In this document: positions 6,753-32,885 of the stretch, one piece after another
How positions within the stretch are numbered: the stretch's first letter is position 1
Layout: each line of letters opens with the position of its first letter
From: Flavobacteriales bacterium
Lineage (GTDB): Bacteria > Bacteroidota > Bacteroidia > Flavobacteriales_C > GCA-002722245
Assembly (NCBI GenBank): GCA_023251075.1
Contig: JAHEZM010000033.1
Span: forward strand, 1-33,060
Reading direction: 5' to 3'
Length of the DNA stretch: 33,060 nt
Notes under the pieces: model-generated
The model's database searches: none
Told to the model about the DNA's origin: nothing
Seen by the model: only the letters and a program-made list of their open reading frames with translations
Program-made: the position numbers and the translations under genes

Positions 6753-6756
6753 GATT

Positions 6757-6764
6757 CAAACATA
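6757..6764 (-). promoter_or_regulatory. Putative -7 element next to the methyltransferase start
   Basis: Minus-strand TATGTTTG fits TAnnTTTG exactly and ends four bases before the GTG start, so the transcript would have almost no leader. No TTG is found at the usual distance upstream, so this is less certain than the other promoters. Confidence 0.4.
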
Positions 6765-6782
6765 CATCATTTTGCTGAATTG

Positions 6783-6846
6783 AAAAAAGCTGCCCCGGAG
6801 GGAAGAGTGAGAGTGAGATAGAGAGTGAAGGGGCGGGGCAGCTTTT
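6783..6846 (-). terminator. Hairpin terminator after the gldM homologue
   Basis: A perfect 13-base-pair stem (6785-6797 with 6834-6846), GC-rich in its upper part, followed on the minus strand by six T. The loop is unusually large at 36 bases and almost purely purine on the plus strand, pyrimidine on the minus. The stem begins eight bases past the gldM stop. Confidence 0.85.
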
Positions 6847-6853
6847 GAGGTAG

Positions 6854-9406: not shown

Positions 9407-12400
9407 ATGAATATGACTGAAAATCAAGGATTATATCACCCATCATTTGAGCACGATTCATGCGGAATCGGATTTGTTGCGAACCTCAAAAACAAAAAAT
9501 CAAACAAGATTATTCAAGATGCAATTTCTATGTTGGAAAACATGGAACATCGTGGTGGTTGTGGCTGTGAGCCAGAAAGTGGAGACGGTGCTGGTATCTT
9601 AATTCAATTGCCGCACGAGTTTTTAAAGAAGGAGTTGAAGAAACAAAATGTGGAGCTTCCTGAGTTTGGACAATATGGTGTTTGTATGACCTTTTTACCA
9701 AAAGACGAAATGGAGCAACAACGCTGTAAAGATCTTTTTGTAGAATATTCTCACCGTTTAGGCTTTGATGTTTTGGCTTTTCGTGTGGTGCCTACCGACA
9801 ATTCAATGTTAGGCAAAACTTCAAAAGGAGTAGAGCCACATGTGGAGCAAATTATTTTGAAATACAATTTAAGCACCGATCCAGAAGCTCTAGAAAGAAG
9901 ATTGTGTGTGCTTAGAAAATATGCTAACCGTAATATTCACCGTGAATTACCAACGACTTACGATAGCTTTCATATCACTTCAAGCTCTTACAAAGTGATC
10001 GTTTACAAAGGTCAGTTGAGAACCAATCAATTGCGTCCGTACTACCTTGATTTACAAACGAAAGAAATTGCTTCTGCTATGGCAGTAGTACACTCTCGTT
10101 TCTCTACCAATACTACTCCTAAATGGAGATTGGCTCAGCCTTTTCGTTTCATTGCTCACAATGGTGAGATCAATACCATCAAAGGTAATGTGAACTGGAT
10201 GCGCTCTAAACAAGTTTTATTGGAAAGCACTTTATTTACGGTAGAAGAAATTGATTGGATGATGCCTATTTGTGATATCAACCGTTCCGACTCTTCTAAC
10301 TTAGATAACGTGGTGGAGATTTTGGCTTTGGGTGGCCGCCCGATGGCGCAGGTAATGATGATGTTGATTCCAGAAGCTTGGCAACAAAATCCTGAAATGA
10401 GAGAAGAAAAACGTGCTTTCTATGAGTACTATTCTTCAATCATGGAACCGTGGGATGGTCCGGCTTCTATCTCTTTTACAGATGGTAAAGTAGTGGGTGC
10501 AACCTTAGATAGAAATGGTTTGCGTCCTTCAAGATATTGCGTATTGGATGATGATACTTTAATCATGTCTTCTGAAGCAGGTTCATTGCCTGTAGATGAA
10601 GCTAAAGTGATTGAAAAGGGTCGTTTGCAACCGGGTAAAATATTTGTTGCCGATTTAGAGAAAGGTCGCATCATTTCCGACAAAGAATTGAAAGACGAAA
10701 TTTGTTCTGCTAAACCTTATGGAAGATGGTTGAAAGAGAACAAATTGAGTATGAAAGATTTGGCTCGTCCGATTAAGAAAACCAACGTTCCTGCAAAAGG
10801 AATGGAGTTATTGCAAAAACAAATTGCTTATGGTTTCACTCGTGAAGATTTAACTACCATTTTAGAACCAATGGCGAAAGAAGGAATGGAAGCGTTGGGT
10901 TCAATGGGTACCGATACTCCTTTGGCAGTATTGTCTTCTCAAAGTCAGCCACTGGCCAACTACTTCAAACAATTGTTTGCGCAGGTATCTAATCCTCCTA
11001 TCGATCCTATTCGTGAGAAAGTGATCATGTCGTTGTACACCAATTTGGGTTCTCAAAAAAACATTTTGGCTGAAACGCCTGAACATTGCCGTCAAATTCA
11101 TTTGGATAATCCATTATTGTCGAACGGACAATTGGATAAACTAAGAAAGTTGAACGACGGTGCTTTCAAATCATATACTATCAACGCTATTTTTAGTGCA
11201 AGTGATCGTGAAGGGACTTTAGAAAATGCGATCGATGAAATTTGTGCCAATGCTGAGCGTGCTACCTTAATGGGTTGTAACATCTTAATTATTTCCGATA
11301 GAAATGTAGATCAAAATACTGCTCCAATTCCATCTTTATTAGCGGTGGGTGCAATTCACTCCAGCTTAATTAAAAAGGGATTGAGAACCAGAACAAGTTT
11401 GGTAGTTGAGGCGGGTGATGCTATTGAGGTGCATCATTTTGCTACCTTGATTGGTTTTGGTGCTAATGCCGTAAACGCTTACCTGGCGGGTGATACCATT
11501 CGTACCATGTTCGAAGAAGAATTGGAAGCGGGTGAAACTACCATCAAAAAATTATTAGGAAACTATAATAAAGCGATCAATTACGGTTTGTTGAAAGTAT
11601 TCTCTAAAATGGGAATTTCTACTGTTCAGTCTTATCAAGGGGCTCAAATATTTGAAGCTTTGGGTATTGGACCGGCGGTAATTGAAAAATGTTTTACCGG
11701 AACAGTATCTCGTATCAAAGGGATGACTTTCGACGATTTGGCGAAAGAAGTTTTGGTGCGTCACAAACGTGCTTACCAAGGCACCAACATTGAAAAACAT
11801 TTGTTCATTGGTGGTTTCTATCAATGGAAGAGAAAAGGGGAGGCGCATTTGTTCAACCCTGAATCTATTGCCCTTTTACAAAAAGCTACAAGAACTAACG
11901 ATGTAAATGTTTACAAACAATTTGCACAAAAAATAAACGATCAAAGTCAGCAAGCACTTACTCTTCGCAGTATGTTGCAACTAAAAAAAGGAACACCTGT
12001 TCCTTTGGATCAGGTAGAATCTAAAGAAAGTATTTTCAAACGTTTTGCAACGGGTGCGATGTCTTTCGGATCAATTTCTTTTGAAGCACATACTACTTTG
12101 GCGATTGCGATGAACCGCATTGGCGGTAAATCGAATTCGGGTGAAGGTGGTGAAGATGAAATTCGTTATGCTAAAAAAGCAAATGGCGATTGGGAAAGAA
12201 GTGCGATTAAACAAGTAGCATCGGGAAGATTTGGTGTTACGGCGCATTATTTAACTAATGCCGATGAGTTACAAATTAAAATTGCACAAGGAGCGAAACC
12301 TGGTGAAGGCGGACAGTTGCCGGGACATAAAGTAGATGATTGGATTGGTAGAGTGCGTCATAGTACGCCGGGCGTGGGATTAATTTCTCCTCCTCCTCAC

Positions 12401-13933
12401 CACGATATTTATTCTATTGAGGATTTAGCGCAATTGATTTACGATTTGAAAAATGCCAATCGTGCTGCACGCATCAACGTTAAGTTGGTATCTGAAGCGG
12501 GTGTTGGAACTATTGCTTCGGGTGTGGCCAAAGCAAAAGGCGATGTGGTTTTAATTGCTGGTTACGATGGTGGAACAGGAGCTTCTCCTTTATCTTCTAT
12601 TCGCCATGCTGGTTTACCATGGGAATTGGGTTTAGCTGAAACGCACCAAACTTTATTGTTAAATGATTTAAGAAGTCGTATCACTGTTCAAACTGATGGT
12701 CAGTTGAGAACAGGTCGCGACATCGCTATAGCTACATTATTAGGTGCTGAAGAATGGGGTATTGCTACTGCTTCTTTAGTGGTTGCGGGTTGTATCATGA
12801 TGCGTAAGTGTCATTTGAATACTTGTCCGGTGGGTGTTGCTACTCAAGATCCTGAACTAAGAAAATTATTTACAGGAAATCCTGATCACGTTGTAAACTA
12901 CTTCACTTTTGTTGCAGAAGATCTTCGCTCTATCATGGCTGAATTAGGTTTCAGAACTATTGATGAAATGGTGGGAAGAACTGATTTATTGGAAGTGAAA
13001 TACAACGAACCACATTGGAAAACTAAAAATTTAGATTTATCTCCGTTGTTGTATCGTCCGAATGTTGCTGCTACAGTTGGTACTTACAAACAAAAAGAAC
13101 AAGAACACGAGATCGACGATATTATTGACCGCAAGTTAATAGAGATTGCAAAACCAGCAATTGAAAAAGGGAAATCAGTAAGCAAAGAATTTAAAATCAT
13201 TAATACCGATCGTTCAGTAGGCGCAATGTTGTCGAATGAAATTTGTAAAGTTCATGGTGGTGTTGGTTTACCAGCGGGTACTATCGATATTAAATTTGTT
13301 GGTTCAGCCGGACAATCATTTGGTGCTTTTACCACTACAGGAGTTAAATTTACTGTGGAAGGTGAAGCGAACGATTACTTCGGAAAAGGATTATCGGGTG
13401 CGGAATTGGTGATTTATCCAAACAAAAAAGCGAAGTTCGTTGCAGAAGATAATATGATTGTAGGTAACGTTGCTTTTTATGGTGCTACAAGTGGTAAGGC
13501 GTTTATTCGCGGACAAGCGGGTGAGCGTTTCTGTGTTAGAAATTCAGGGGTAACTGCTGTTGTTGAAGGAATTGGTGATCATGGTGTGGAATATATGACG
13601 GGCGGACGAGTAGTAATTCTCGGTAAAACAGGAAGAAACTTTGGCGCCGGTTTTAGTGGTGGTTATGCTTTCATTTGGGATAAATGGAAAGAATTTGAAG
13701 CGAACTTTAATAATGAATTATCGGATATCGAAACCCTTTCTGCTGATGATGCAGCAGAATTGAAAGCTTTGATTGAAGAGCATTTGCAACAAACGGGTAG
13801 TGGCGTTGCTGCACAAATTTTAGAGAACTGGGATAAAGAATTGAAGTTTTTCAAAAAAGTAATGCCGCGTGATTACAAACGTGTGTTGGAAAAAAAGAAA
13901 GCTGAAAAAATTAAAAAAGAATTGGTAAAATAA
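9407..13933 (+). CDS. gltB: Glutamate synthase large (alpha) subunit
   Basis: The large subunit splits glutamine and makes glutamate from 2-oxoglutarate with electrons from the small subunit. At 1,508 residues it has family length. Domains in order: N-terminal amidotransferase with nucleophile Cys19 in HDSCGIGF, so the first 18 residues are a propeptide to be removed; a linking central domain; the FMN-binding synthase domain (about 850-1220) with the 3Fe-4S cysteines 1129, 1135 and 1140 in CIMMRKCHLNTC; and the GXGXG beta-helix domain at the C-terminus with motifs such as GNVAFYGATSGKAF. Met3 is an alternative start. The gene lies 10 bases before gltD and the two surely form one operon. All key residues examined are in place. 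Confidence 0.98.
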   Translation: MNMTENQGLYHPSFEHDSCGIGFVANLKNKKSNKIIQDAISMLENMEHRGGCGCEPESGDGAGILIQLPHEFLKKELKKQNVELPEFGQYGVCMTFLPKDEMEQQRCKDLFVEYSHRLGFDVLAFRVVPTDNSMLGKTSKGVEPHVEQIILKYNLSTDPEALERRLCVLRKYANRNIHRELPTTYDSFHITSSSYKVIVYKGQLRTNQLRPYYLDLQTKEIASAMAVVHSRFSTNTTPKWRLAQPFRFIAHNGEINTIKGNVNWMRSKQVLLESTLFTVEEIDWMMPICDINRSDSSNLDNVVEILALGGRPMAQVMMMLIPEAWQQNPEMREEKRAFYEYYSSIMEPWDGPASISFTDGKVVGATLDRNGLRPSRYCVLDDDTLIMSSEAGSLPVDEAKVIEKGRLQPGKIFVADLEKGRIISDKELKDEICSAKPYGRWLKENKLSMKDLARPIKKTNVPAKGMELLQKQIAYGFTREDLTTILEPMAKEGMEALGSMGTDTPLAVLSSQSQPLANYFKQLFAQVSNPPIDPIREKVIMSLYTNLGSQKNILAETPEHCRQIHLDNPLLSNGQLDKLRKLNDGAFKSYTINAIFSASDREGTLENAIDEICANAERATLMGCNILIISDRNVDQNTAPIPSLLAVGAIHSSLIKKGLRTRTSLVVEAGDAIEVHHFATLIGFGANAVNAYLAGDTIRTMFEEELEAGETTIKKLLGNYNKAINYGLLKVFSKMGISTVQSYQGAQIFEALGIGPAVIEKCFTGTVSRIKGMTFDDLAKEVLVRHKRAYQGTNIEKHLFIGGFYQWKRKGEAHLFNPESIALLQKATRTNDVNVYKQFAQKINDQSQQALTLRSMLQLKKGTPVPLDQVESKESIFKRFATGAMSFGSISFEAHTTLAIAMNRIGGKSNSGEGGEDEIRYAKKANGDWERSAIKQVASGRFGVTAHYLTNADELQIKIAQGAKPGEGGQLPGHKVDDWIGRVRHSTPGVGLISPPPHHDIYSIEDLAQLIYDLKNANRAARINVKLVSEAGVGTIASGVAKAKGDVVLIAGYDGGTGASPLSSIRHAGLPWELGLAETHQTLLLNDLRSRITVQTDGQLRTGRDIAIATLLGAEEWGIATASLVVAGCIMMRKCHLNTCPVGVATQDPELRKLFTGNPDHVVNYFTFVAEDLRSIMAELGFRTIDEMVGRTDLLEVKYNEPHWKTKNLDLSPLLYRPNVAATVGTYKQKEQEHEIDDIIDRKLIEIAKPAIEKGKSVSKEFKIINTDRSVGAMLSNEICKVHGGVGLPAGTIDIKFVGSAGQSFGAFTTTGVKFTVEGEANDYFGKGLSGAELVIYPNKKAKFVAEDNMIVGNVAFYGATSGKAFIRGQAGERFCVRNSGVTAVVEGIGDHGVEYMTGGRVVILGKTGRNFGAGFSGGYAFIWDKWKEFEANFNNELSDIETLSADDAAELKALIEEHLQQTGSGVAAQILENWDKELKFFKKVMPRDYKRVLEKKKAEKIKKELVK

Positions 13934-21930: not shown

Positions 21931-23391
21931 TTGCGTTTGAAAAATCAAAATTTATTTAATTCAAATTATGCCGTTAAGAAGGGTATTTACGATGAATATG
22001 TGTCGGAGGAATGGAAGGTGAGAGCGCACTATGATCTACTATCTCAACAGTTTTCAGAATATAACAATGCCGATTATTGTAAGTTCAATGAAGAAGCAAA
22101 AATTGTTTTTTTTAATGAAGGAATCACCTTTGCCGTTTATTCCGATAATCCTTTAGGATCTGAAAAGATTTTTCCTTTCGATTTTATTCCAAGAATTATT
22201 GATCATAAAGAGTGGAGCAAAATTGAAAAAGGTGCCATACAAAGAAACCGCGCAATTAATGAATTTTTAAAAGATTTATACCACGATAAAAAAATATTAA
22301 AAGATGGCATAGTTCCTAAGGAATTGATTTATTCGAGTATCAATATGAGTCCGGTAATGGAAGGATTCATGCCTAAAGGGGGCATTTACAATCACATTTC
22401 CGGAACCGATATTATTCGTCATAGTGATGGAGAATATTATGTTTTAGAAGATAATGTTCGTTGTCCTTCCGGTGTAAGTTATGTATTAGCGAATCGCAAT
22501 ACCTTAAAAAAAACTTTCCCTAAGCTATTCAGTAAGTGTCAGCCTCAACCTATTATTGATTACCCTGAGAAATTACTTACGATGTTGCAATCGGTGAGTC
22601 CGGGAATTAGTGCTCCTAATTGCGTAGTGCTTACTCCGGGAATGTATAATTCTGCTTATTTCGAGCATTCGTTTTTAGCGCAAAGTATGGGTGTAGAGTT
22701 GGTAGAAGGAAGAGATTTATTTGTGAAGAATGATGTGGTGTACATGAAAACAATTCATGGTCCGGAAAGAGTGCATGTGATTTATCGTAGAATTGATGAC
22801 CCGTATTTAGATCCTTTGATGTTTAATCCCGATTCTGTTTTAGGAACTCCGGGATTGATGAGTGCTTATTTGGCGGGCAATGTTACTTTGGTAAATGCAC
22901 CCGGAACAGGTGTTGCCGATGACAAAGCGGTATATGCCTACATGCCGGAAATTATAAAGTATTATTTGGGGGAAGAACAAATTTTAAAAAATGTTCCAAC
23001 TTACCGTTGTGGTGAAGATGACGATTTTAAATATGTATTGGAAAATATCGATAAGCTCGTGGTAAAACCAGTAGATGAATCGGGAGGTTATGGAATCTCT
23101 ATTGGAAATACTTTAAGCAAAGAACAAATTGAAGAAGTAAAAAAATCGATCAAAGAAAATCGTAGAAAATATATCGCACAACCCATCATGTCGCTTTCTG
23201 TACATCCTACTTTTATTGAGGGAGAAGATATTATTGAACCACGTCATATCGACTTACGCACTTTTTGTTTGTTAGGAAAAAATACGGAGTACGTATTGCC
23301 GGGCGGTTTAACTCGTGTAGCTTTGAAACGCGGTAATTTAATTGTAAACTCATCGCAAGGAGGAGGGTCGAAAGATACCTGGGTGATTTAA
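21931..23391 (+). CDS. Circularly permuted ATP-grasp protein (COG2308), Anbu operon
   Basis: 486 residues. The family is a permuted ATP-grasp ligase, thought to join amino-acid or peptide units with ATP. Typical blocks are seen: YDEYVSEEWKVRAHY near the start, YVLEDNVRCPSGVSYVLANR, VLTPGMYNSAYFEH, VIYRRIDDPYLDPL, VNAPGTGVADDKAVYAYMP, LVVKPVDESGGYGISIG and PRHIDLRTFCLLG. The last two bear ATP- and metal-binding residues. The start is a TTG at 21931: an in-frame stop lies 13 bases before it and no ATG or GTG precedes the conserved part, so the TTG or a second TTG two codons on is used. It is the first gene of a tightly packed run; a weak TATCTTCG at 21907-21914 may be its -7 element. No activity has been firmly shown for the family, as far as I know. 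Confidence 0.93.
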   Translation: MRLKNQNLFNSNYAVKKGIYDEYVSEEWKVRAHYDLLSQQFSEYNNADYCKFNEEAKIVFFNEGITFAVYSDNPLGSEKIFPFDFIPRIIDHKEWSKIEKGAIQRNRAINEFLKDLYHDKKILKDGIVPKELIYSSINMSPVMEGFMPKGGIYNHISGTDIIRHSDGEYYVLEDNVRCPSGVSYVLANRNTLKKTFPKLFSKCQPQPIIDYPEKLLTMLQSVSPGISAPNCVVLTPGMYNSAYFEHSFLAQSMGVELVEGRDLFVKNDVVYMKTIHGPERVHVIYRRIDDPYLDPLMFNPDSVLGTPGLMSAYLAGNVTLVNAPGTGVADDKAVYAYMPEIIKYYLGEEQILKNVPTYRCGEDDDFKYVLENIDKLVVKPVDESGGYGISIGNTLSKEQIEEVKKSIKENRRKYIAQPIMSLSVHPTFIEGEDIIEPRHIDLRTFCLLGKNTEYVLPGGLTRVALKRGNLIVNSSQGGGSKDTWVI

Positions 23392-23400
23392 TAAATTAGT

Positions 23401-24339
23401 ATGTTATCAAGAATTGCAAATAACCTTTTTTGGATGGGGCGCTATATTGAGAGAATAGAGCACACTGCACGCTACACCAAAGTGAATTATTTTTCGGCAA
23501 TGGATGCTCCTATTTCTATTCAGAAAGATTTTGTGTTGAATTCTATTTTAAGAATGAATGGTGCTACTTTGAACAAAAAAGATTTCAATGAAAAAATGGT
23601 TTTGAAAACCATTGCCTTCGATAAAAAAAATCCGGCTTCCATTATTTCGAGTGTGATCAACGCACGTGAAAACGCGAGAGGAGCAAGAGATATCATCAGT
23701 ACAGAATTGTGGGAAACCATCAATAAATATTATCACTTCGTTTTAAATTATAATGAAGAGTCGTATGTAACTACAGGCTTGTTTGATTTCACTCAAAATT
23801 CTATTGAGCAATTGACGATTGTGAAAGGGCAAATGGATGCTACTCTGGTGCATAATGAGGCGTGGTCGATTATTAAATTAGGATTGTATTTAGAGCGTGC
23901 CGCACAAATTTTACGTGCCATAAAAACCAAGATGGAAGATATAGAAACCTTAAAGGGTGATGAAAAAGAAAGTGCTTCTATGTTATCACATCAACTGGCC
24001 GCAATGTTGCGTGGTCTGGAGTCTTTCGATATGAGTAGAAAGCATTATCGTAGAGCTCCTAACTTGAATGATTCATTAGAATTTTTGTTGCTGAATGATC
24101 GTTTTCCACGCTCGGTTTTAAGTTGTTTGCGTAAAGTAACCGAACAAATTCATGTGATTAGTGCCGCTAAAACTCCTTCAAAAGATTCGGCAGAATTTTT
24201 GGCGAATAAAAAATATTCCGGATTAAAACATCTCACGATTGAAGAGATTAATGAGGATTTACATAGCTTCATCAACAAAACTGAAAATGATATTTACTTA
24301 ATCGGCGTTAAACTCGTTGATGAATATTTTTCTTTTTAA
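23401..24339 (+). CDS. Alpha-E domain protein (COG2307), Anbu operon
   Basis: 312 residues, almost all helical, matching the alpha-E family from its first residues: MLSRIANNLFWMGRYIERIEHTAR. The pattern of conserved Arg and Glu residues continues with INARENARGARDIIS and LGLYLERAAQILRAI. The family is always found with the COG2308 ATP-grasp and a transglutaminase. It is thought to act with the ligase, though its role is not known. It starts nine bases after the ATP-grasp gene, and its stop overlaps the next start by one base (TAATG), so translation is likely coupled. Confidence 0.93.
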   Translation: MLSRIANNLFWMGRYIERIEHTARYTKVNYFSAMDAPISIQKDFVLNSILRMNGATLNKKDFNEKMVLKTIAFDKKNPASIISSVINARENARGARDIISTELWETINKYYHFVLNYNEESYVTTGLFDFTQNSIEQLTIVKGQMDATLVHNEAWSIIKLGLYLERAAQILRAIKTKMEDIETLKGDEKESASMLSHQLAAMLRGLESFDMSRKHYRRAPNLNDSLEFLLLNDRFPRSVLSCLRKVTEQIHVISAAKTPSKDSAEFLANKKYSGLKHLTIEEINEDLHSFINKTENDIYLIGVKLVDEYFSF

Positions 24340-25196
24340 TGCAATACAAATTAGAATATAGCGCCACCAATATATATGCACAACATGTGTATGGTGCATA
24401 CATGAAATTTTTAATTCATCCTTATGCTGCTTTCGGTGTGCAGGCTTCCTTCCCTTATTTTCAAACGAGTGCGGAAGGAGCTTGGTGGATTAGCAATTCG
24501 CGCAAACAAGAAGTAAGTGAAATATTTTTTAAAACCGATGTGCGTTTCGATTGGTTAGATATTTTTTATTCTACCGATGTTTTTGTTCCTGAAATAAATC
24601 CATTCGAAAGAGAATGGTTACCTGTTTTAAAAGAAAAATCTATTTTGAATTCTACCGATTGGATCATCGACAACTACAAATATATTCACAGCGCAAAAAT
24701 TCGCCCGAAAACTTTTTTAACCTTTGAACAGGTAACTGAATTTGTAATGCCCAACAAAGGAAATTTAATTGATAAAATTATTGCTTTGCGTGATCAGGTG
24801 CATGCTTATTTAGAATTTGTTTCAGGCGTTACTACTACACAAACCATCGCCTCAGAAGTTCTTCAATTGAAGAAAGGAGTTTGTCAGGATTTTGTTCATC
24901 TTTTTTTAGCTGTTCTACGCAACAATGGAATTGCTGCACGTTATACCAGTGGTTACTTAAATCAAGGCGAAAATATTCGTGGTGCATCGCAATTGCACGC
25001 GTGGGTAGAATGTCATATTCCCAATGTAGGTTGGGTGGGAATCGATCCGTCGAATAAATTATTGGTAGATCATAACTACGTTAAAATTTGTCATGGTTAC
25101 GATTACGATGATTGTATGCCACTGCGCGGTGTAGTAAATACTTTCTCGCAAGATCAAAGTTCAAATTATCAAGTTAAAGTTCAACAAATACAATAA
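24339..25196 (+). CDS. Transglutaminase-like cysteine protease, Anbu operon
   Basis: 285 residues. The C-terminal half is a transglutaminase/papain-like core with a full catalytic triad: Cys182 in KKGVCQDFVHLFL, His220 in SQLHAWVEC and Asp236 in GWVGIDPSN. The N-terminal 130 residues are a beta-rich region as in other members of COG1305, though the usual opening motifs are divergent. No signal peptide or membrane helix is seen, so it is cytoplasmic by appearance. In bacteria such proteins mostly hydrolyse or ligate peptide bonds. Beside the ATP-grasp, alpha-E and Anbu genes it is expected to cut or modify the product of the ligase. The overlap with the previous gene is one base and the gap to the next is five bases. 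Confidence 0.93.
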   Translation: MQYKLEYSATNIYAQHVYGAYMKFLIHPYAAFGVQASFPYFQTSAEGAWWISNSRKQEVSEIFFKTDVRFDWLDIFYSTDVFVPEINPFEREWLPVLKEKSILNSTDWIIDNYKYIHSAKIRPKTFLTFEQVTEFVMPNKGNLIDKIIALRDQVHAYLEFVSGVTTTQTIASEVLQLKKGVCQDFVHLFLAVLRNNGIAARYTSGYLNQGENIRGASQLHAWVECHIPNVGWVGIDPSNKLLVDHNYVKICHGYDYDDCMPLRGVVNTFSQDQSSNYQVKVQQIQ

Positions 25197-25201
25197 ATAA
25201 A

Positions 25202-25957
25202 ATGACTTATTGCTTAGGAATTAAATTGAAAGAAGGCATCGTGGGGATTGCCGATACACGTATCACCTCTGGTACAGAAACTACCATGGCGAAAAAACTT
25301 TTCACTTATGAAGATGGAAAAAACTCTTTGTTTTTAATGACGTCGGGATTGCGCTCTGTGCGCGATAAAGCGCTTACGTATTTTAAAGAGGTTTTGGCTG
25401 CTAAAGAGGAATCAATGGATAAGATTTATAAAGTGGTAAACCTTTTCAGCAAACAAATTAAAATTGTAGCGAAAGAAGATAAAGCTTCTTTGCATGAAGC
25501 AGGATTGAATTTTAATATTCATACTATTATTGGCGGACAAATGGAAGGCGATAGCGATGTGAAAATGTATTTGATTTATCCGGAAGGAAATTGGATTGAA
25601 ATTGGTGGGGCCTCACCTTTTATGATTATAGGAAATTCGGGCTATGGAAAACCAATTTTGAATCGTTCCATTACTAAAGAGGTAGGAATTCCCTTTGCGC
25701 TAAAAACCGGTTTGCTCTCTTTCGATTCTACTCGTGTTTGTGCTAACGACGTGGGTTATCCGATAGATGTTTTTGTTTACGAAAAAGATTCTTTCAAAAT
25801 AAAACAACATCGATTTGAAGAAAAAGATCTGCGTCACCTTAGCGATCAATGGGCAAAAGTGCTCAACAACGGAATTGCCCAAATGAGTGAAGATTTTGCA
25901 AATGTTTTTGTGGAGAAGAAAAAAGTGCTGAGCAAAAAAGTTGCTAAAAAGAAATAG
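25202..25957 (+). CDS. Anbu proteasome-like peptidase (COG3484)
   Basis: 251 residues. Anbu is the 'ancestral beta subunit', an Ntn-hydrolase related to HslV and the 20S proteasome that forms open helical assemblies in the few cases studied. The start MTYCLGIKL places Thr2 as the nucleophile after loss of Met1. Asp18 in GIADTR and Lys31/Lys32 fit the other active-site positions. SGLRSVRD (48-55) lies where the family has a conserved serine/glycine turn. No HslU-like ATPase is next to it, as usual for Anbu. The last 13 residues are a lysine-rich tail (about half Lys). It follows the transglutaminase by five bases. The substrate is unknown; a peptide made by the neighbouring ligase is the common guess. 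Confidence 0.93.
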   Translation: MTYCLGIKLKEGIVGIADTRITSGTETTMAKKLFTYEDGKNSLFLMTSGLRSVRDKALTYFKEVLAAKEESMDKIYKVVNLFSKQIKIVAKEDKASLHEAGLNFNIHTIIGGQMEGDSDVKMYLIYPEGNWIEIGGASPFMIIGNSGYGKPILNRSITKEVGIPFALKTGLLSFDSTRVCANDVGYPIDVFVYEKDSFKIKQHRFEEKDLRHLSDQWAKVLNNGIAQMSEDFANVFVEKKKVLSKKVAKKK

Positions 25958-25966
25958 TTCTAAATA

Positions 25967-27328
25967 ATGAATCTACCTGAAGAGTTTGTTCAATGTACAT
26001 CTGAAATTATTGGTGAGGAATGGAATGATTTCCTTTCTGCGTTGAATAGGGAACCTTCCATTTCAGTTCGAGTAAATTCTTCTAAATTAAATTCACTTCC
26101 CTTCAAACCTATTCCATGGAGTGCGAATGCATATCAATTAAATAAACGTCCGCAATTTACGCTTGATCCACTCATACACGCTGGTGCATATTATGTGCAG
26201 GAGGCAAATTCTATGTTTGTGGAGGAGGCTTTGCGACAAACCATCGATATTTCTAAAGCGCAAATTGCCTTGGATTTGTGTGCTGCACCAGGTGGAAAAA
26301 CCACTTTGATTTCTTCTTTGTTGAGTGAAAATTCATTGGTAGTAGCCAATGAAGTAATTAAAGCACGGGCAGGAATTTTAAAAGAAAATGTGCAGAAATG
26401 GGGTAAAGGAAATGTGGTGGTGACCAGTAATGATGCTAAAGATTTTGGTAAACTGAATTCTTTCTTTGATTTGATAGTTGCTGATTTACCTTGTTCTGGG
26501 GAAGGTATGTTTCGTAAAGACCCAAAGGCAGTGGAAGAATGGTCGTTGAATAATGTGAATTTATGTGCTGAGCGACAAAAACGTATTGTTGCCTCTGTTT
26601 GGCCTTCATTGAAAGAAGGGGGTGTTTTTTTATATAGTACCTGCACGTATAATCGTGATGAAAATGAAAATAATATTCAATGGATTTTAGAGAATTTTGA
26701 TGCTGAATTACTTCCTTTAAAGATCAATGATGAATGGGGTATTGTTAGTTCTGGTAAAGGGTATCGATTTTATCCTCATCGAACTCCAGGAGAAGGTTTT
26801 TTTATTTCAGTCGTTCGCAAAAAAGGCAATTTTGAAGAAAATCGCGGCAAGAAAAATTTCAAAAAAGATTTCTCCTTACCTTCTAAAAAGGAAAAAGAAA
26901 TTATTGAATCGTTCTTAAAACCCAATTTGGAATATTTAAAATGGAGAACTTTCCTTTTTGCTTTTCAGTTTTCTACAGAGAAATTTATGCAAGTGGCAGA
27001 AGCTTTGTATGTGCTGCATTTGGGAGTGGAAGTGGGGGAACTCATTCGCGATGATCTTAAACCTTCACCCACTATAGTGTATTCCAATTTTATTAGTAAA
27101 AATTCTTTTGAGTTTTTAGAGCTCAATCAATTGGATGCATTAAAATTTTTAAAAAGAGAAAATATTATTTTGCCTTCAGGTGCTAAAAAAGATTGGCTCA
27201 TTTTTACCTTTAAGAAAGTAAATATTGGTCTGGCTAAAAATATAGGAAACCGAATCAACAATTACTTTCCAAAAGAATGGGTCATTAGAATGGCTATTCC
27301 TTCTGGTGAATTGGAAACACTCGGTTGA
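25967..27328 (+). CDS. rsmF: RsmB/RsmF-type RNA (cytosine-5) methyltransferase
   Basis: 453 residues. The family methylates a cytosine of rRNA or tRNA at carbon 5. The SAM-binding motif is DLCAAPGGKTT (103-113). The two cysteines of the m5C mechanism are present: Cys176 in LPCSGEGMFRKD, which releases the product, and Cys226 in YSTCTYNRDENE, the nucleophile. The LPCSGEGMFRKD form, and a C-terminal region of about 150 residues that may be an RNA-binding (PUA-like/YebU) part, favour RsmF (which modifies C1407 of 16S rRNA) over RsmB. The gene starts nine bases after the Anbu gene and so is probably in the same transcript, though the work it does is unrelated. The exact target in this phylum is inferred. 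Confidence 0.88.
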   Translation: MNLPEEFVQCTSEIIGEEWNDFLSALNREPSISVRVNSSKLNSLPFKPIPWSANAYQLNKRPQFTLDPLIHAGAYYVQEANSMFVEEALRQTIDISKAQIALDLCAAPGGKTTLISSLLSENSLVVANEVIKARAGILKENVQKWGKGNVVVTSNDAKDFGKLNSFFDLIVADLPCSGEGMFRKDPKAVEEWSLNNVNLCAERQKRIVASVWPSLKEGGVFLYSTCTYNRDENENNIQWILENFDAELLPLKINDEWGIVSSGKGYRFYPHRTPGEGFFISVVRKKGNFEENRGKKNFKKDFSLPSKKEKEIIESFLKPNLEYLKWRTFLFAFQFSTEKFMQVAEALYVLHLGVEVGELIRDDLKPSPTIVYSNFISKNSFEFLELNQLDALKFLKRENIILPSGAKKDWLIFTFKKVNIGLAKNIGNRINNYFPKEWVIRMAIPSGELETLG

Positions 27329-27345
27329 TTTTGTATTTTTAAACC

Positions 27346-27501
27346 ATGATGAAACATTTGTTGTATATCGATCCGGGATCAGGCAGTATGCTCTTTCAGC
27401 TTTTAGTAGCAGGAGTGGTAGGTTTCATCGCTTTTGTAAAAATGTATTGGTTTAAAATAAAATCTTTTTTCTCTTTTAAAAAGAAAGATGAATCAAAATA
27501 A
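27346..27501 (+). CDS. 51-residue membrane protein with YIDPGSGS motif
   Basis: A small gene: MMKHLLYIDPGSGSMLFQLL, then one hydrophobic segment (VAGVVGFIAFV, about 21-32) and a basic C-terminus rich in Lys and Phe. The YIDPG(S/T)GS motif followed by one membrane helix is a pattern I know from short proteins near phosphatase- or sulfatase-like and methyltransferase genes, but no function is known. The start could be the first or the second ATG (27346 or 27349). It begins 17 bases after the RNA methyltransferase gene and overlaps the next gene by 14 bases, so it is very likely co-expressed with it. Confidence 0.78.
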   Translation: MMKHLLYIDPGSGSMLFQLLVAGVVGFIAFVKMYWFKIKSFFSFKKKDESK

Positions 27502-28828
27502 TAAAAGTATAGAACCCTCTTCGTTCAAAGATTCTGCCGGCTTTGTTTATTACCAAAATGGTAAGGTATATAGAGATGTTTTAAATTCGTTTTTGTTGAA
27601 TTACAACGCTGTAAAATCAAAAGGAATTTATAACTCATTAATAGAAAATAAATTTCTTTTTCCTTTCAAAGAACTAAATGAAAATGGAAATATTCGTTTG
27701 GAATCTGAAAAAATTGCTTTAATTACTTATCCCTACGAATGGGGGTTTCAGCAAATGAAGGAAGGTGCAATTTTTCAGTTAGAATTGATTGAAAAATGTT
27801 TGAATCAAGGAGCAATGCTTAAAGATGCTTCTCCTTTTAATATTCAGTTTATAAATGGAAATCCGATTTTTATTGATGTGCTTTCTATTGATGAATATGT
27901 GAGCGATAAACCTTGGCAGGCCTACAAACAATTTTGCGAAATGTTTTTAGCACCCCTTCTTTTAAGTGCTTATTTTCCTGAGAATTGGAATAAGGAATTG
28001 CAAATTAATTTAGAAGGAATTTCACTGAAAAAAACAGCTGCGTTGTTACCGCTTAAAGCCCGGTTATCATCGCTGGCATTGATTCATATTATTTGGCATT
28101 CTAAATTCCAGATGAAAGGAAAAGGAAGTGGAGAAGTAAAAATGCCTAAGCAAAAAGTGCTTTCTATTTTGAGTCATTTGAAAATGGGAATTAAAGAATT
28201 GAAAAAATATTCTCCCTCTAAACAATGGACTAATTATCAACAGCAATTACCCTACACTACAGATCAGTTTCAGCTAAAATCGGATACGGTTAAACAATGG
28301 ATTAATAAATCATATTATAAACTCGTGCTTGATATTGGCGCCAATCATTCCCTCTTTGTAAATCACTTGCAATACCGTGCCGATGATATTTTAGTAATTG
28401 ATAACGATGATGCTGTTGTTGATTCTCTTTTCAAAGAAAAAAAAGAAAGAGTTTCTGCCTTGCATGTTGATATTTCACTTCCTAGTCCGGCTTTAGGTCT
28501 GTTGTTAAACGAACGCAAAAGCTTTACAGAAAGGGTTCGTCCTGATTTGACTTTAGCTTTGGCAGTCATCCATCATTTATTTCATAGCCGTAATATTCCA
28601 ATGAATCGTTTGGCTGAGTTGTTTGCAGAATACTCTAAAGAATTGATTATTGAATTCGTGAGTGAAAATGATGAGCAATTTCAATTGATTAAAAATGTAA
28701 ACAATAAACATCCTTACAACAAAAATTTGTTTGAAGAAGAATTCGAAAAATATTTTTCTATTGATAAAGTAGTGGAAGTAAAAAGTGGAAAGAGATTTTT
28801 GTATCATATGTTTACTAAAACGCAATGA
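27488..28828 (+). CDS. Kinase-like plus SAM-methyltransferase fusion protein
   Basis: 446 residues in two parts. The first 230 or so look like an aminoglycoside-phosphotransferase/kinase-like fold: LKDASPFNIQF (111-121) fits the D-x4-N catalytic loop with Asp113 and Asn118, and FIDVLS (128-133) supplies the metal-binding Asp130. The segment TYPYEWGFQQMKEGA before it resembles the hinge region. The second part, from about 270, is a class I methyltransferase: LVLDIGANHSLF (279-290), an acidic strand end VIDND, and LTLALAVIHHLF. I know this arrangement as a widespread family, often annotated only as a SAM methyltransferase or NoeA-like. It overlaps the small membrane protein gene by 14 bases and the sulfatase-like gene by four (ATGA). 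The substrate is unknown; a glycan or lipid is likely from the neighbours. Confidence 0.78.
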   Translation: MNQNNKSIEPSSFKDSAGFVYYQNGKVYRDVLNSFLLNYNAVKSKGIYNSLIENKFLFPFKELNENGNIRLESEKIALITYPYEWGFQQMKEGAIFQLELIEKCLNQGAMLKDASPFNIQFINGNPIFIDVLSIDEYVSDKPWQAYKQFCEMFLAPLLLSAYFPENWNKELQINLEGISLKKTAALLPLKARLSSLALIHIIWHSKFQMKGKGSGEVKMPKQKVLSILSHLKMGIKELKKYSPSKQWTNYQQQLPYTTDQFQLKSDTVKQWINKSYYKLVLDIGANHSLFVNHLQYRADDILVIDNDDAVVDSLFKEKKERVSALHVDISLPSPALGLLLNERKSFTERVRPDLTLALAVIHHLFHSRNIPMNRLAELFAEYSKELIIEFVSENDEQFQLIKNVNNKHPYNKNLFEEEFEKYFSIDKVVEVKSGKRFLYHMFTKTQ

Positions 28829-30336
28829 AAAATGTTGTTTTCTATATCAGAGATTTTTTAATTATTGCCCTCATTTCTATTTACCCTATTTTATTTTTGT
28901 ATTTCAACAACGCCGATTTTGTATTTGAGGGAGAAGTCCTTACCCCAATATTAATAGTTATTTCAGCGTCTTTTACTTTTCTTATCCTATTTAATTTAAT
29001 ACATAAAAAGAAATCGAATAATGTTTTAGTGGTAGTGATTTTAATGTTGTGGTTTTTATTGTATGGCCATGTTTATTTTTTCTTGTTACAGGCATTTGAT
29101 TTAACTTACGATACTTTCCGACATAGAATATTTTTACTTCTTTATTCTCTTGTTTTTTTAATTCCTATTGTTGTGATTTGGAGAAGAGAAGAGGTGAATG
29201 CATCTTTCATGAATCTTGTTTTTTTATTGGCTTTGGGATTGAATTTTCAATTTATTTTTAAAAGCATGAGCGGATTAAATATCAGTGCAGATAAAAGCAA
29301 ATCGAAAAAAGAAGTAGTGCAAGAAAGTGCTAATTATCCTGATGTTTATTACATTATTATGGATTCTCATCCGAACACAAAAAATTTAAAAAAATATTTC
29401 TCTTACGACAATTCTAAGTTCACTCAGGAGTTAAACGAAATAGGTTTTCAGGTAATTGATAATGCTCGTAGTAATTATCCTTTTACCTATTTTTCTTTGC
29501 CCTCCAGTTTGAATATGGAGTACATCAATTATTTTCAGGATACAGTGTCGAAGGAAAAAGAAAATGGAGAATATCCTTATTCTAAAATTGTAAAAAATAA
29601 GGTGGTAGATTATTTCAAAAACAAAGGATATAAGTACGTTTTGTATCCTTCTGCTTACGATCAGTTTAATGAGGGGAGTGAGGCTGAAGTGGTGATGTCG
29701 CGACCAACGCGTATCAATACTTTTCACGAAGCATTGATTCAACTCAGTTTATTGAATTGTTTGAATTTAGAATTTCATCAGCAAGATCTTTTCGATTTTT
29801 ACAATGGCACTTTTGCAATGTTACCCAATACTCCAAAAATAAAGGGAAGTAAATTTGTTTTTTACCATTGTTTACCTCCGCATCCACCTATGGTTTTTAA
29901 TGCAAAAGGCGAGTTTATTTACCATGAGCAAAATGTAGAGAATAGATACCATCAGAAAAAAGAATACGCTGAACAGGTAGAATTCATTGATGCAAAAATG
30001 TTGGAAATTGTAAAAGGTATTTTGGCTAATTCTGAACAAGAACCTATTATCATTTTACAAGGGGATCATGGAAGCGCATCAACGCAAAAATTTGAAGATG
30101 AAAATAATTGGAGTGATACTCCTACCAAAGAATTTATAGAAGAAAGATATGGAATATTAAATGCGATTTATTTACCTAAAAAATATCAGTTGACATTCCC
30201 TAAAGACCATACGCCGGTGAATACTTTCCGACGAATTGTAAATACTGTTTTTGAGGACACCCTGAAGATTTTACCTAATCATTATTACTACTCCAATTAT
30301 AGTCCTGATTACCATTTTAAGGAAGTAAATCCTTAA
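28825..30336 (+). CDS. Membrane sulfatase-like / alkaline-phosphatase superfamily enzyme
   Basis: 503 residues. About five membrane helices fill the first 146 residues (near 11-27, 39-59, 67-90, 103-119, 128-146). The rest is a soluble domain of the alkaline phosphatase/sulfatase superfamily, probably on the periplasmic side. The opening metal-ligand motif is YYIIMDSHPNTKNL with Asp180, and Thr185 or a nearby Ser is a candidate nucleophile. Later blocks are HCLPPHPPMVF and QGDHGS with Asp414 and His415 as metal ligands. The layout is like that of phosphoglycerol or phosphoethanolamine transferases of the envelope, but the substrate is not fixed by sequence. The last 20 bases overlap the 3' end of the convergent SGNH-like gene. 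Confidence 0.83.
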   Translation: MKNVVFYIRDFLIIALISIYPILFLYFNNADFVFEGEVLTPILIVISASFTFLILFNLIHKKKSNNVLVVVILMLWFLLYGHVYFFLLQAFDLTYDTFRHRIFLLLYSLVFLIPIVVIWRREEVNASFMNLVFLLALGLNFQFIFKSMSGLNISADKSKSKKEVVQESANYPDVYYIIMDSHPNTKNLKKYFSYDNSKFTQELNEIGFQVIDNARSNYPFTYFSLPSSLNMEYINYFQDTVSKEKENGEYPYSKIVKNKVVDYFKNKGYKYVLYPSAYDQFNEGSEAEVVMSRPTRINTFHEALIQLSLLNCLNLEFHQQDLFDFYNGTFAMLPNTPKIKGSKFVFYHCLPPHPPMVFNAKGEFIYHEQNVENRYHQKKEYAEQVEFIDAKMLEIVKGILANSEQEPIIILQGDHGSASTQKFEDENNWSDTPTKEFIEERYGILNAIYLPKKYQLTFPKDHTPVNTFRRIVNTVFEDTLKILPNHYYYSNYSPDYHFKEVNP

Positions 30337-31315
30337 CTAAAATATCCATAAATTCTTTTGAACCTTTTACAGTGGTGATCAGCGGACAAACAAATTTATT
30401 TTTATCGAGACCAATTTTTGTTTGATCGTAGAGGTGATATTCAATACCATATTCATGAGCAATGTTTGCGGTTCGTTGTAAAAGTTCTTTTCTATTGGGT
30501 AGTGATTTCACATCACCCTTGTAAACCGGTGATTCGTAAAGGAAAACTTTGATTCCTTTTTCTTTACACATTTTCAATATTTCTCTAAAGTATTTTTCTC
30601 TTTTTTTATTCCAGTGAAAGCTTTGTTGGTTGCTATACAATTGATAGTAGAATGATGAATCGTCTTTGGTTTCTACCTTGAAATGATCGGCAAATAGAAT
30701 TTTTTGTGGAGCAGTATATCCATCTGGTCGTAAATGATACATAGTGTTTTCGTGTTTTTCATATCCTTCTGCAAAGCTGGGTTTTTCTTCATCTGATAAA
30801 TATAATTTCCACCCAGAAATCATTTCAGCATTGCTTTTATCATTGTACCAGGCATATTTCATAAAAGGAATAAAAGCAAATTTTGCATAAGATGAATCCA
30901 TTTCGCAAATTACTTTTTGCACCAGGGAATCATTGTACCACGGTGAGAATTGATAAGTATGAAAATAGTTGAATTTTAAATCGAAACTTTCTGGCGTGGC
31001 GTAAAATAAAATTGTTTTGGGTGCGGCATTATTTTTTAAATAGAGATAGAGATGTAAATAATTATCAGCAAAATCGGCATGACGCATCGATAAATTGTAA
31101 GAATGCATTTTAGTCAATGAATCTAGATAATGAGGATTGATGGTAAACATAGATTCGCAGGGACCAACAATGAGCATATCATTTTTTAGATTGCCTTTAG
31201 TGATATAACTTGTTTTTAAGTTGATACTTTCCTTCATTCCTTTTTCGTAAAACCAATCCAACCCGAAAAGAATCAGAATAAAACTAAGAAGATATATGAC
31301 TATTTTTTTAATCAT
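30317..31315 (-). CDS. Membrane-anchored SGNH/DltD-like protein with degenerate active site
   Basis: 332 residues. One N-terminal membrane helix (about 5-20) is followed by an extracytoplasmic domain with an SGNH-like order: block I MLIVGPCESMFTINP (47-61), then YNLSMRHADF (73-82), an alternating alpha/beta core, and a final segment FVCPLITTVKGSKEF. In DltD- and AlgJ-like partners of MBOAT enzymes, block I reads GSS/GDS with a serine nucleophile and the last block D-x-x-H. Here the matching residues seem to be Cys53, Cys310 and Ile313. If the alignment is right, the hydrolase triad is lost. It follows the MBOAT gene with a one-base overlap (TAATG), so they form one unit. Its likely role is with the MBOAT enzyme in O-acylation of a surface polymer. 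Confidence 0.7.
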   Translation of the reverse strand: MIKKIVIYLLSFILILFGLDWFYEKGMKESINLKTSYITKGNLKNDMLIVGPCESMFTINPHYLDSLTKMHSYNLSMRHADFADNYLHLYLYLKNNAAPKTILFYATPESFDLKFNYFHTYQFSPWYNDSLVQKVICEMDSSYAKFAFIPFMKYAWYNDKSNAEMISGWKLYLSDEEKPSFAEGYEKHENTMYHLRPDGYTAPQKILFADHFKVETKDDSSFYYQLYSNQQSFHWNKKREKYFREILKMCKEKGIKVFLYESPVYKGDVKSLPNRKELLQRTANIAHEYGIEYHLYDQTKIGLDKNKFVCPLITTVKGSKEFMDILVKDLLP

Positions 31316-32643
31316 TAAAATTGCAAATAGATAAAAGGATTTTGATCACCAAATTTTCCGAATACAACAATTAGTGTACTTAGTGCTAACCAAAATAAAA
31401 TATTGAATTGTGCTGATCTGCTTCTGGTTTCTAATGTTCGTTCCAGTAACATGGTTCCAACCACAAGGAGCACGGTAATACTTAGACTTAGTTGTTGTTC
31501 GAAATAACCGCCGCCCGCTAAAATAGCTATATAATCGCTGAGCCAATTTTCAGGAATAAAATGCACTGAAAATATTTGTTTTAAGATAAATGTTGCGTTG
31601 TGTAATGAGCTTGATCTGAAAAACAAAAATGCAAAACTCAACAACAAAAGCACTAAAATATTTTTTATAAATTTTGGAATAAAAGAAGGCATTTTTATTT
31701 GAGATTCTAGCATCATGTAAACAGCGTGCAACAATCCCCAAATGAGAAATGTTATTTTTAATCCATGCCAATAGGCTGAAATAATAAAAGTAACCAGAAG
31801 GGCTATCATTACTGCCCATTTACCTTGTGATCGCAATTGATAGCTTAGTGGATAGAAGATGTATTTTCTTAACCAGGTCATTAAAGTGATGTGATTTTTC
31901 TGCCAATATTCTGTAATTGATTTTGATCGTAGTGGCAGGTGAAAATTTTCAGGTAATTCTATTCCCAATATTTTTGAAAGTCCGATAGCAATATCTGTAT
32001 AAGCCGAAAAATCCAGATAAACCCGAAAGGTATATAAAATTACAGCAGTGGATACGGTAAAGCCAGAATGAATTTCTGGATAATCAAATATGGCTGAAAT
32101 AGGGTAGGAGAGTCTTTCCGATAAGACTAATTTTTTAAAAAGTCCGTAAATAATTCTATTGCATCCAATGATTAAATTTTCTTGTTTGAATGTTTTATAG
32201 CCTTCTAATTCTATAGTTAGAGAGGTGTTTTCCGCAATAGGGCCTGATGGTAGTTTAGGAAAATAGATGATGTTTAAAAAGTAAACGAGCGGATTGATAT
32301 TTTGTAGAGAAGGATTGTTTTTTACATCTACGGTGTAGGCAATATTTTGTAATGTATAAAAAGCAACACCAATTAATGCATTAGTTTCTAACCCTATTGA
32401 ATGAGACAACATAATCAGCAGAACATGGACTGCAATAATTCTGTCTGCCCGAATTTTTATTTTGTATCCGTAAAGTGTTATTGCTGTGCTTGCTAAAACA
32501 ATGAATACGGCTGCTATGTGAAAAGTACATAAGAATGCAAGAGAGGCAAGGGTGAGTATCCATTTTTGCCATTTGGGAAAGATGTAATAAACAATTACCA
32601 GTAATAAAAAACACGCAAAAAATTCTACAGATATAAAATTCAT
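31315..32643 (-). CDS. MBOAT family O-acyltransferase (DltB/AlgI type)
   Basis: 442 residues with about ten membrane helices. The family moves acyl groups across the membrane onto surface polymers. Family blocks seen: FPKLPSGPI (128-136), RVYLDFSAYTDIAIGLSKILG (the F-S-Y-D-I-G signature), PENFHLPLRSKSITEYWQ, and NHITLMTWLRKYIFYPL with His251. The catalytic histidine is His293 in AYWHG, followed by FLIWGLLHAVY. It overlaps the ACP gene upstream by four bases (ATGA) and the SGNH-like gene by one. The acyl donor is probably carried by that ACP, as with DltC and DltB, but the acyl group cannot be told from sequence. Confidence 0.93.
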   Translation of the reverse strand: MNFISVEFFACFLLLVIVYYIFPKWQKWILTLASLAFLCTFHIAAVFIVLASTAITLYGYKIKIRADRIIAVHVLLIMLSHSIGLETNALIGVAFYTLQNIAYTVDVKNNPSLQNINPLVYFLNIIYFPKLPSGPIAENTSLTIELEGYKTFKQENLIIGCNRIIYGLFKKLVLSERLSYPISAIFDYPEIHSGFTVSTAVILYTFRVYLDFSAYTDIAIGLSKILGIELPENFHLPLRSKSITEYWQKNHITLMTWLRKYIFYPLSYQLRSQGKWAVMIALLVTFIISAYWHGLKITFLIWGLLHAVYMMLESQIKMPSFIPKFIKNILVLLLLSFAFLFFRSSSLHNATFILKQIFSVHFIPENWLSDYIAILAGGGYFEQQLSLSITVLLVVGTMLLERTLETRSRSAQFNILFWLALSTLIVVFGKFGDQNPFIYLQF

Positions 32644-32885
32644 GGTTTTTGTTTTTTCAAAATAAGCGCGAGCAAATCAGCTATGTTTTGGAGTTCAATA
32701 ATTTCATTTAAACTCAAATGAATGTCAAACATTTTTTCTACTTCATACATCAACATCATATGAGAAAATGAATCCCACCCTTTAATGTTATTGGCTGAAG
32801 AGGTTTTGGAAACAAGCAAGTCATCATTTTTAAAAAAACGACGAAAGATAAATTGTATATCGTTGAGTATTTCTTGTTCTTTCAT
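32640..32885 (-). CDS. Acyl carrier protein (DltC-like)
   Basis: 81 residues, mostly helical. The phosphopantetheine site is Ser39 in KGWDSFSHM, a usual variant of the DSL motif. It is followed by the acidic helix LMYEVEKMFDIHLSLNEI, typical of carrier proteins for polymer decoration (DltC-like, D-alanyl or acyl) rather than the fatty-acid ACP. It overlaps the MBOAT gene by four bases. An activating ligase like DltA is not within the window; it may lie further along the minus strand beyond the right edge. The reading frame is open for about 45 codons before the ATG, but this extension lacks ACP features and is not included. Confidence 0.88.
   Translation of the reverse strand: MKEQEILNDIQFIFRRFFKNDDLLVSKTSSANNIKGWDSFSHMMLMYEVEKMFDIHLSLNEIIELQNIADLLALILKKQKP

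Follow-up and report, generated by a model that had tools for sequence, protein, structure and literature searches.

A NoeA/NoeB-type gene trio with a one-helix mini-protein in a Flavobacteriales bacterium

What do three overlapping genes of a Flavobacteriales bacterium make together, and is the smallest of them a genuine partner of the other two? The genes lie at positions 27346 to 30336 of the 33,060-nucleotide stretch analysed here (the window: contig JAHEZM010000033.1, assembly GCA_023251075.1), where a first-pass annotation had read a one-helix mini-protein, a kinase-like protein joined to a methyltransferase, and a membrane phosphatase/sulfatase-type enzyme. The open reading frames (ORFs) were confirmed, all on the plus strand: a mini-protein of 51 aa (27346..27501), a kinase-like/methyltransferase protein of 446 aa (KM, 27488..28828) and a membrane enzyme of 503 aa (28825..30336), with overlaps of 14 nt between the mini-protein and KM genes and of 4 nt between KM and the last gene. 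The trio belongs to the NoeA/NoeB kind, and its new part is the mini-protein. The core of this kind, a kinase-methyltransferase related to NoeA, is already known.

Kinship with NoeA and NoeB, and linkage of the mini-protein

Alignment of KM with NoeA of Ensifer/Sinorhizobium, which is one row (L023) of the KM alignment used below, covered 96% of the length at 28.3% identity (E 8e-40). By sequence comparison, KM and NoeA are related over their full length, and the membrane enzyme (hereafter the NoeB-type enzyme) is related to NoeB, NoeA and NoeB both being products of host-range genes of Sinorhizobium meliloti. According to a title cited in later papers, noeA and noeB have been known by name as host-range nodulation genes since 1995, and the passages available from published sources (PMC9758233 and PMC4053727 among them) name the operon as nodL, noeA and noeB, without the mini-protein. 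In Ensifer canadensis, nodL is followed by a gene for a hypothetical protein of 71 aa and then by noeA and noeB, the last annotated as sulfatase-like, and on pSymA of S. meliloti 1021 a mini-protein gene lies between nodL and noeA, overlapping noeA. This gene has not gone wholly without annotation, since some rhizobial records list a hypothetical protein there. A search of plasmid records with KM gave 65 entries, 57 from Sinorhizobium, those with an annotation being NoeA, and the Ensifer mini-protein matched 61 plasmid records (57 Sinorhizobium, 3 Rhizobium and 1 Ensifer). After four non-rhizobial entries were set aside, the rhizobial NoeA records also numbered 61, with the same genus tallies, an agreement that rests on the tallies and on the rows seen, one mini-protein row and five NoeA rows being unlisted. 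The window thus shares with the nod-box n5 operon of S. meliloti a full-length KM homologue next to a NoeB-like enzyme and a mini-protein gene overlapping it upstream, but it differs in having no nodL, in its bacterial class and in the lack of any nodulation-cluster context, at 28% identity to NoeA. For the window's genome, a gliding-type GldM gene suggests an affiliation with Bacteroidota. A passage of PMC4053727 describes noeA as truncated in a poorly nodulating strain, which is consistent with a role in host recognition, in rhizobia only.

The family of Lani_1194, a group of kinase-methyltransferases that includes NoeA, has already been described (Krysinska et al. 2022, PMC9758233). The passages available from that paper report the methyltransferase in 94% of about two thousand Lani_1194 homologues and, among 816 neighbourhoods, the conserved neighbours Lani_1193 (65%) and the NoeB-like Lani_1195 (38%); the nature of Lani_1193 is not stated in its main-text passages. 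KM resembles this family in its order of kinase and then methyltransferase, in its Arg/Asp/Asn/Asp residues and in having conserved neighbours, whereas the same passages describe no mini-protein motif, topology or fusion. The mini-protein is the new element here, described as such neither there nor in the first-pass annotation, and literature searches with YIDPGSGS and its DPGSGS/DPGTGS variants returned no relevant paper.

The survey covered 104 KM loci, including the window (L001) and two pairs that each come from a single genome (L004/L021 and L019/L022). Eighty of these were the best 80 of 588 matching stretches, so that sequences resembling the query are over-represented, and L020, with a partial KM of 57 aa, was left out of all counts. 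A mini-protein, detected with a hidden Markov model whose input ORFs were picked by the motif from these very loci, adjoined KM on the same strand within 400 nt at 94 of the 104 loci, upstream in 89 and downstream in 5, and in most cases the two genes overlapped. Elsewhere it lay on the opposite strand (L002, L088) or one gene further away (L061), was missing where the contig end cuts the locus (L063, L071, L082), or gave only a weak opposite-strand match (L067). The full trio was found within 400 nt at 63/104 loci, and the distance matrices of its three proteins correlated with each other (r 0.41-0.47; 0 of 2000 permutations as high). Among 295 genomes of the class, 18 had both mini-protein and KM, 2 had KM alone, none had the mini-protein alone and 275 had neither (Fisher p = 7e-27, indicative only, as the genomes are related), counting mini-protein matches with E 1.4e-11 or better and leaving uncounted the weaker matches in six further genomes, one of which (L124) has YIGPGGG in place of the motif. 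The association of mini-protein and KM is far beyond chance, and no other gene is linked to KM as tightly as that of the mini-protein; NoeB-like genes were present in 15 of the 295 genomes, all with KM.

The mini-protein consists of a short N-terminus, the YIDPGSGS motif (residues 7-14; 27364..27387), one transmembrane helix and a basic C-terminal tail. Y7 and Q18 were invariant in 55/55 aligned members, and D9, P10, G11, G13 and S14 were nearly invariant. A signal-peptide-like A-x-A ended directly before the motif in 39 of 94 mini-proteins (by a simple pattern, not SignalP), and together with the basic residues that follow the helix these leaders imply an N-terminus outside and a tail inside, which suggests that the YIDPGSGS end faces outwards. 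The proportion of synonymous differences exceeded that of nonsynonymous ones (pS > pN) in every pair listed, suggesting that the mini-protein is under purifying selection. A chance or spurious ORF was rejected as an explanation, given this selection and the co-occurrence with KM. Comparison with Pfam yielded no fitting family, only scattered and weak matches, and a profile search of PDB was weak or negative. In one genome the mini-protein forms the N-terminus of a NoeB-like enzyme, as a 520-aa fusion beside genes reading as glycosyltransferases, and in another (G034) a degenerate copy, seen as a weak second match, is fused to a NoeB-like enzyme, with 540 aa in all. The order in the fusion is what one would expect if the tail of the mini-protein and the N-terminus of NoeB both lie on the inner side.

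The two predicted enzymes

The kinase-like half of KM comprises residues 1-232 (27488..28183). R29, D113, N118 and D130 were invariant in 104/104 KM sequences, the window included, as were H362, E389 and R436; D113, N118 and D130 are the residues that the first-pass annotation had proposed as catalytic, naming a lack of conservation in homologues as grounds for refutation, and this check did not overturn its kinase-like reading. An AlphaFold 2 model of KM (mean predicted local distance difference test, pLDDT, 93.3; predicted template modelling score, pTM, 0.93; 74 sequences in the alignment) places a helix at 87-106, a strand at 109-111, D113, N118, strands at 119-122 and 125-128, and D130, an order that we read as that of a kinase C-lobe. 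The spacing of D113, N118 and D130 is 5 and 12, compared with 5 and 13 from PKA numbering (D166/N171/D184). Passages of PMC9758233 place the Lani_1194/NoeA family among kinases, equate its Arg/Asp/Asn/Asp with PKA K72/D166/N171/D184, and note that the Arg replaces the usual kinase Lys. Given which residues never vary, how they are ordered and spaced, and this published analysis, the N-terminal half is likely to have a kinase fold; its activity as a kinase is putative. Scanned member by member against Pfam, this half gave a weak RIO1 match in 3/58 (best E 0.074).

The class I S-adenosylmethionine methyltransferase half (approximately residues 240-446; 28205..28825) maps to residues 244-446 of the model, so that the chain ends with it, and its class is confirmed by the predicted fold. 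The best VIA-align match was NodS, the Nod-factor N-methyltransferase (Z 18.6, root-mean-square deviation (rmsd) 2.6, 168 aligned, model residues 251-446), followed by relatives of NNMT and by AtPMT1, a phosphoethanolamine N-methyltransferase (Z 16.8). As VIA-align rows within Z 1 are tied, the NodS match names the class of methyltransferase and not its substrate. All rows for the whole KM model were methyltransferases, with no kinase among them, which leaves the kinase half uncovered in that comparison. Among the KM homologues, 37 of 74 matched the methyltransferase family PF13489. A Mimivirus LCMiAC01 protein (BFVD A0A481Z196) matched the whole KM model (E 1.1e-19; TM-score on the query side, TMq, 0.63), suggesting, on predicted structures, that the kinase-methyltransferase architecture has reached a giant virus.

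The NoeB-type model (mean pLDDT 87.9) has predicted helices at 2-28, 36-59, 63-90 (in two pieces), 100-120 and 126-150, about five transmembrane helices in all, before an outer domain of the alkaline-phosphatase superfamily with D180, T221, D414 and H415. This agrees with the membrane phosphatase/sulfatase-type enzyme read earlier, and 31/37 homologues matched PF00884 (Sulfatase). The best Foldseek match of the whole chain was full-length EptA (E 5.9e-9), then EptC and MCR-1, with sulfatases interspersed. Of 80 NoeB-type rows, 77 held Thr and 3 held Ser in the nucleophile column (T221); S. meliloti NoeB, aligned alongside, also has Thr there, and D414 was present in 80/80. The enzyme is thus like the EptA/LtaS/PbgA transferases in its helices, its outer domain and its Thr at the nucleophile column, but, at about 13% identity to EptA and linked to KM and the mini-protein, it forms a family of its own. 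A formylglycine sulfatase was rejected, as C/S-x-P-x-R occurred at the nucleophile column in 0/80 rows; a stray SRPTR at residue 292 in one row lies off that column. The Thr nucleophile and the lack of a formylglycine motif therefore favour a phospho-transferase or phosphodiesterase rather than a sulfatase, as far as sequence can tell. Some loci carry two NoeB-like genes (L085, 1730-4812; L093, 7368-10330; L078, 4198-8845), with 85 matches in 79 loci.

Proposed reaction scheme and rival explanations

Our tentative reading, held at a little less than even confidence, is that the trio is a NoeA/NoeB-type transmembrane module for phospho-group decoration, coupled by the mini-protein. In the cytosol, KM would phosphorylate and then methylate a polar group carried by a substrate that is linked to the membrane and that, by analogy with WbdD, would most likely be a glycan or glycolipid. 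The mini-protein would sit in the membrane with YIDPGSGS outside and its basic tail inside, holding KM to the NoeB-type enzyme; the coupling role is proposed because of the linkage and the fusions, and how it would work is conjecture. Outside, Thr221 of the NoeB-type enzyme would transfer or remove a phospho-linked group on a surface glycan in an EptA/LtaS-like ping-pong reaction, the fold and the residues being observed and the reaction inferred by analogy. In symbionts of Medicago this module, whose mini-protein would be the product of the unnamed extra gene that follows nodL and precedes noeA, would modify either a signal used in symbiosis or a glycan of the cell surface. A bolder form of the proposal, which we regard as doubtful, holds that the mini-protein is a membrane microprotein, near-obligate and not described before, that links the kinase-methyltransferase in the cytosol with a Thr-phosphotransferase outside and may hand the group over by way of its exposed N-terminal motif. 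It would then do for a phospho-group what the DltX relay does for D-Ala, would occur in many phyla of bacteria and in one archaeon, and would be encoded by a fourth gene, so far overlooked, of the nodL-noeA-noeB operon of S. meliloti.

Several results weigh against a phospho-group decoration module. The passages of the papers found give no substrate, activity or reaction for any protein of the NoeA/NoeB kind. A profile search of PDB with the KM kinase half matched no solved kinase (one irrelevant match, E 0.69), and hhalign, run with APH, UbiB-like and control alignments, ranked APH kinases best among eight pairs, with D-N-D in register, yet at a probability of only 3% (P 0.015; the APH alignment kept 17 of 22 APH-type ORFs, by the motif H-x-D-x4-N and a length below 500 aa). 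For the NoeB-type enzyme, VIA-align tied sulfatases (Z 21.5, rmsd 4.0, 286 aligned) with EptC (Z 21.3, rmsd 3.7, 276 aligned), and the best matches of its profile among PDB sequences were sulfatases. NoeB is also less tightly linked than the mini-protein, being missing from 5 of the 20 KM genomes of the class, and no mini-protein or linked NoeB accompanies KM at the divergent loci L018, L019 and L022. At least one of seven glycan-type families was found beside only 36/100 loci, a count made with no control and with some loci fetched twice.

Glycan chain-end capping, which the first-pass annotation had proposed by analogy with WbdD, is possible but unproven. KM alone would cap the growing glycan end with methyl phosphate in the cytosol and stop its growth, the NoeB-type enzyme would trim or edit outside, and the mini-protein would only anchor KM. 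Like WbdD of E. coli O9a, KM unites a kinase-like half and a class I methyltransferase in one chain, and a Foldseek search with the KM model placed WbdD entries at ranks 7, 10 and 13. Excerpts of published work on WbdD give a methyltransferase at 1-210, a kinase at 211-459 and then a coiled coil, with a C-terminal region that recruits WbdA at the membrane, where WbdD likewise works. KM has the reverse order and ends with its methyltransferase, and membership of the WbdD family was rejected on that ground. Moreover, the WbdD rows aligned about 220 columns (TMq 0.29) and probably cover the methyltransferase half, a phmmer search of PDB chains with the window KM gave 0 matches at E up to 1, and an ABC ATPase family stood beside 6/100 loci. 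We consider capping of this kind unlikely. What stood of the earlier interpretation is the architecture, including the domain order opposite to that of WbdD; the annotation had overlooked the NoeA/NoeB pair, the published kinase-methyltransferase family and the linkage of the mini-protein.

Similarly improbable is a small-molecule route, in which KM would phosphorylate and N- or O-methylate a small amine or alcohol (phosphocholine-like), to be exported and attached by the NoeB-type transferase. The matches to NodS, NNMT and AtPMT1 and the phosphoethanolamine-transferase fold of the NoeB-type enzyme agree with such a route, but class I methyltransferases all resemble one another, the tied rows again applying, and no lipid-headgroup gene was recognised among the recurring neighbour clusters listed. 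There is a slim chance that the kinase half instead phosphorylates a protein, such as the mini-protein tail or the NoeB-type enzyme, and so regulates the outer enzyme. The tight linkage of KM and mini-protein and the invariant Tyr and Gln of the latter would suit such signalling; the conserved Tyr, however, would lie outside, away from a cytosolic kinase, and a methyltransferase on the same chain is hard to account for. A covalent shuttle, with the Tyr of YIDPGSGS carrying a group between the enzymes, is just as improbable. Its precedent is DltX, a tiny one-helix protein that, according to passages of PMC12148441, works between one enzyme in the membrane and another on the outer side, its Tyr carrying D-Ala, and that has an outer FXYXXF motif at its C-terminal end. 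The mini-protein is likewise a one-helix membrane microprotein with an invariant Tyr at its presumed outer end, and acylation genes adjoin the module (MBOAT, DltD-like and acyl carrier protein genes in the window, nodL in rhizobia). Against this, its outer end is the N-terminal one, YIDPGSGS is unrelated to FXYXXF, KM is no acyltransferase, and the acylation genes of the window are on the opposite strand. The survey gives noeA and noeB a testable form, as a module in which catalytic residues can be named, a third component is added, the topology is predicted and fusions occur naturally.

Neighbourhood, distribution and other features of the window

No widely recurring neighbour family was found among 100 loci besides KM and NoeB. 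The recurring ones, with names read from cluster representatives and from the Pfam tally, were epimerases (11/100 loci), GT2 (10/100) and GT4 (8/100), and in that tally, which covered 125 of 420 neighbour proteins, glycosyltransferases led with 6, the remainder being mixed housekeeping proteins. Loci outside glycan clusters sit among the housekeeping genes typical of their lineage. With so few recurring neighbours, the trio looks like a self-contained module that some lineages use in glycan clusters.

The KM loci found by contig scanning (best 80 of 588 stretches) carried titles of Bacteroidetes, Chloroflexi, candidate phyla radiation (CPR) bacteria, Planctomycetota, Zixibacteria, Armatimonadetes, Clostridia/Thermincola, a delta proteobacterium, an Altiarchaeales archaeon and others. 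Because loci occur in monoderm, CPR and archaeal records, lipopolysaccharide (LPS) cannot be the general substrate, and the chemistry would be a general one, specific neither to Nod factors nor to LPS. Closer to the window, KM was present in 20/295 genomes of the class and, out of 40 relatives, in 3 genomes, the window's own among them; searches of four genomes from the same genus and five from the same family did not find it. The window's genome gave a single match each for the mini-protein, KM and NoeB-type genes. One whole trio (L043, 5793-8905) is on a contig titled as a 'Rickettsia typhi' metagenome-assembled genome, a label that looks doubtful. Another genome (L134) has two divergent KM copies, at 6161-7582 and 11238-12674, with no mini-protein or linked NoeB, clustered with proteins whose sequences read as sulfotransferase-like, flippase-like and glycosyltransferase-like.

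The window's own mini-protein, KM and NoeB-type enzyme had no Pfam match above the cut-off, and an NCBIfam scan of them was weak or negative too. The gene 5' of the trio (25967-27328) encodes an RsmF-like ribosomal RNA methyltransferase. On the minus strand, genes for an acyl carrier protein, an MBOAT protein (DltB-like) and DltD/DUF1574-like proteins (30317-32885) converge on the trio with a 3' overlap of 20 nt; the window's genome has ten MBOAT matches. The guanine-plus-cytosine content across the trio and these acylation genes (26001-32000) is 0.31-0.34, compared with 0.34-0.40 in the remaining window, and could mark an accessory region. Further upstream, genes for circularly permuted ATP-grasp, alpha-E, transglutaminase and proteasome-subunit-like proteins follow one another on the plus strand (21931-25957), genes of the kind that usually accompany the Anbu peptidase.

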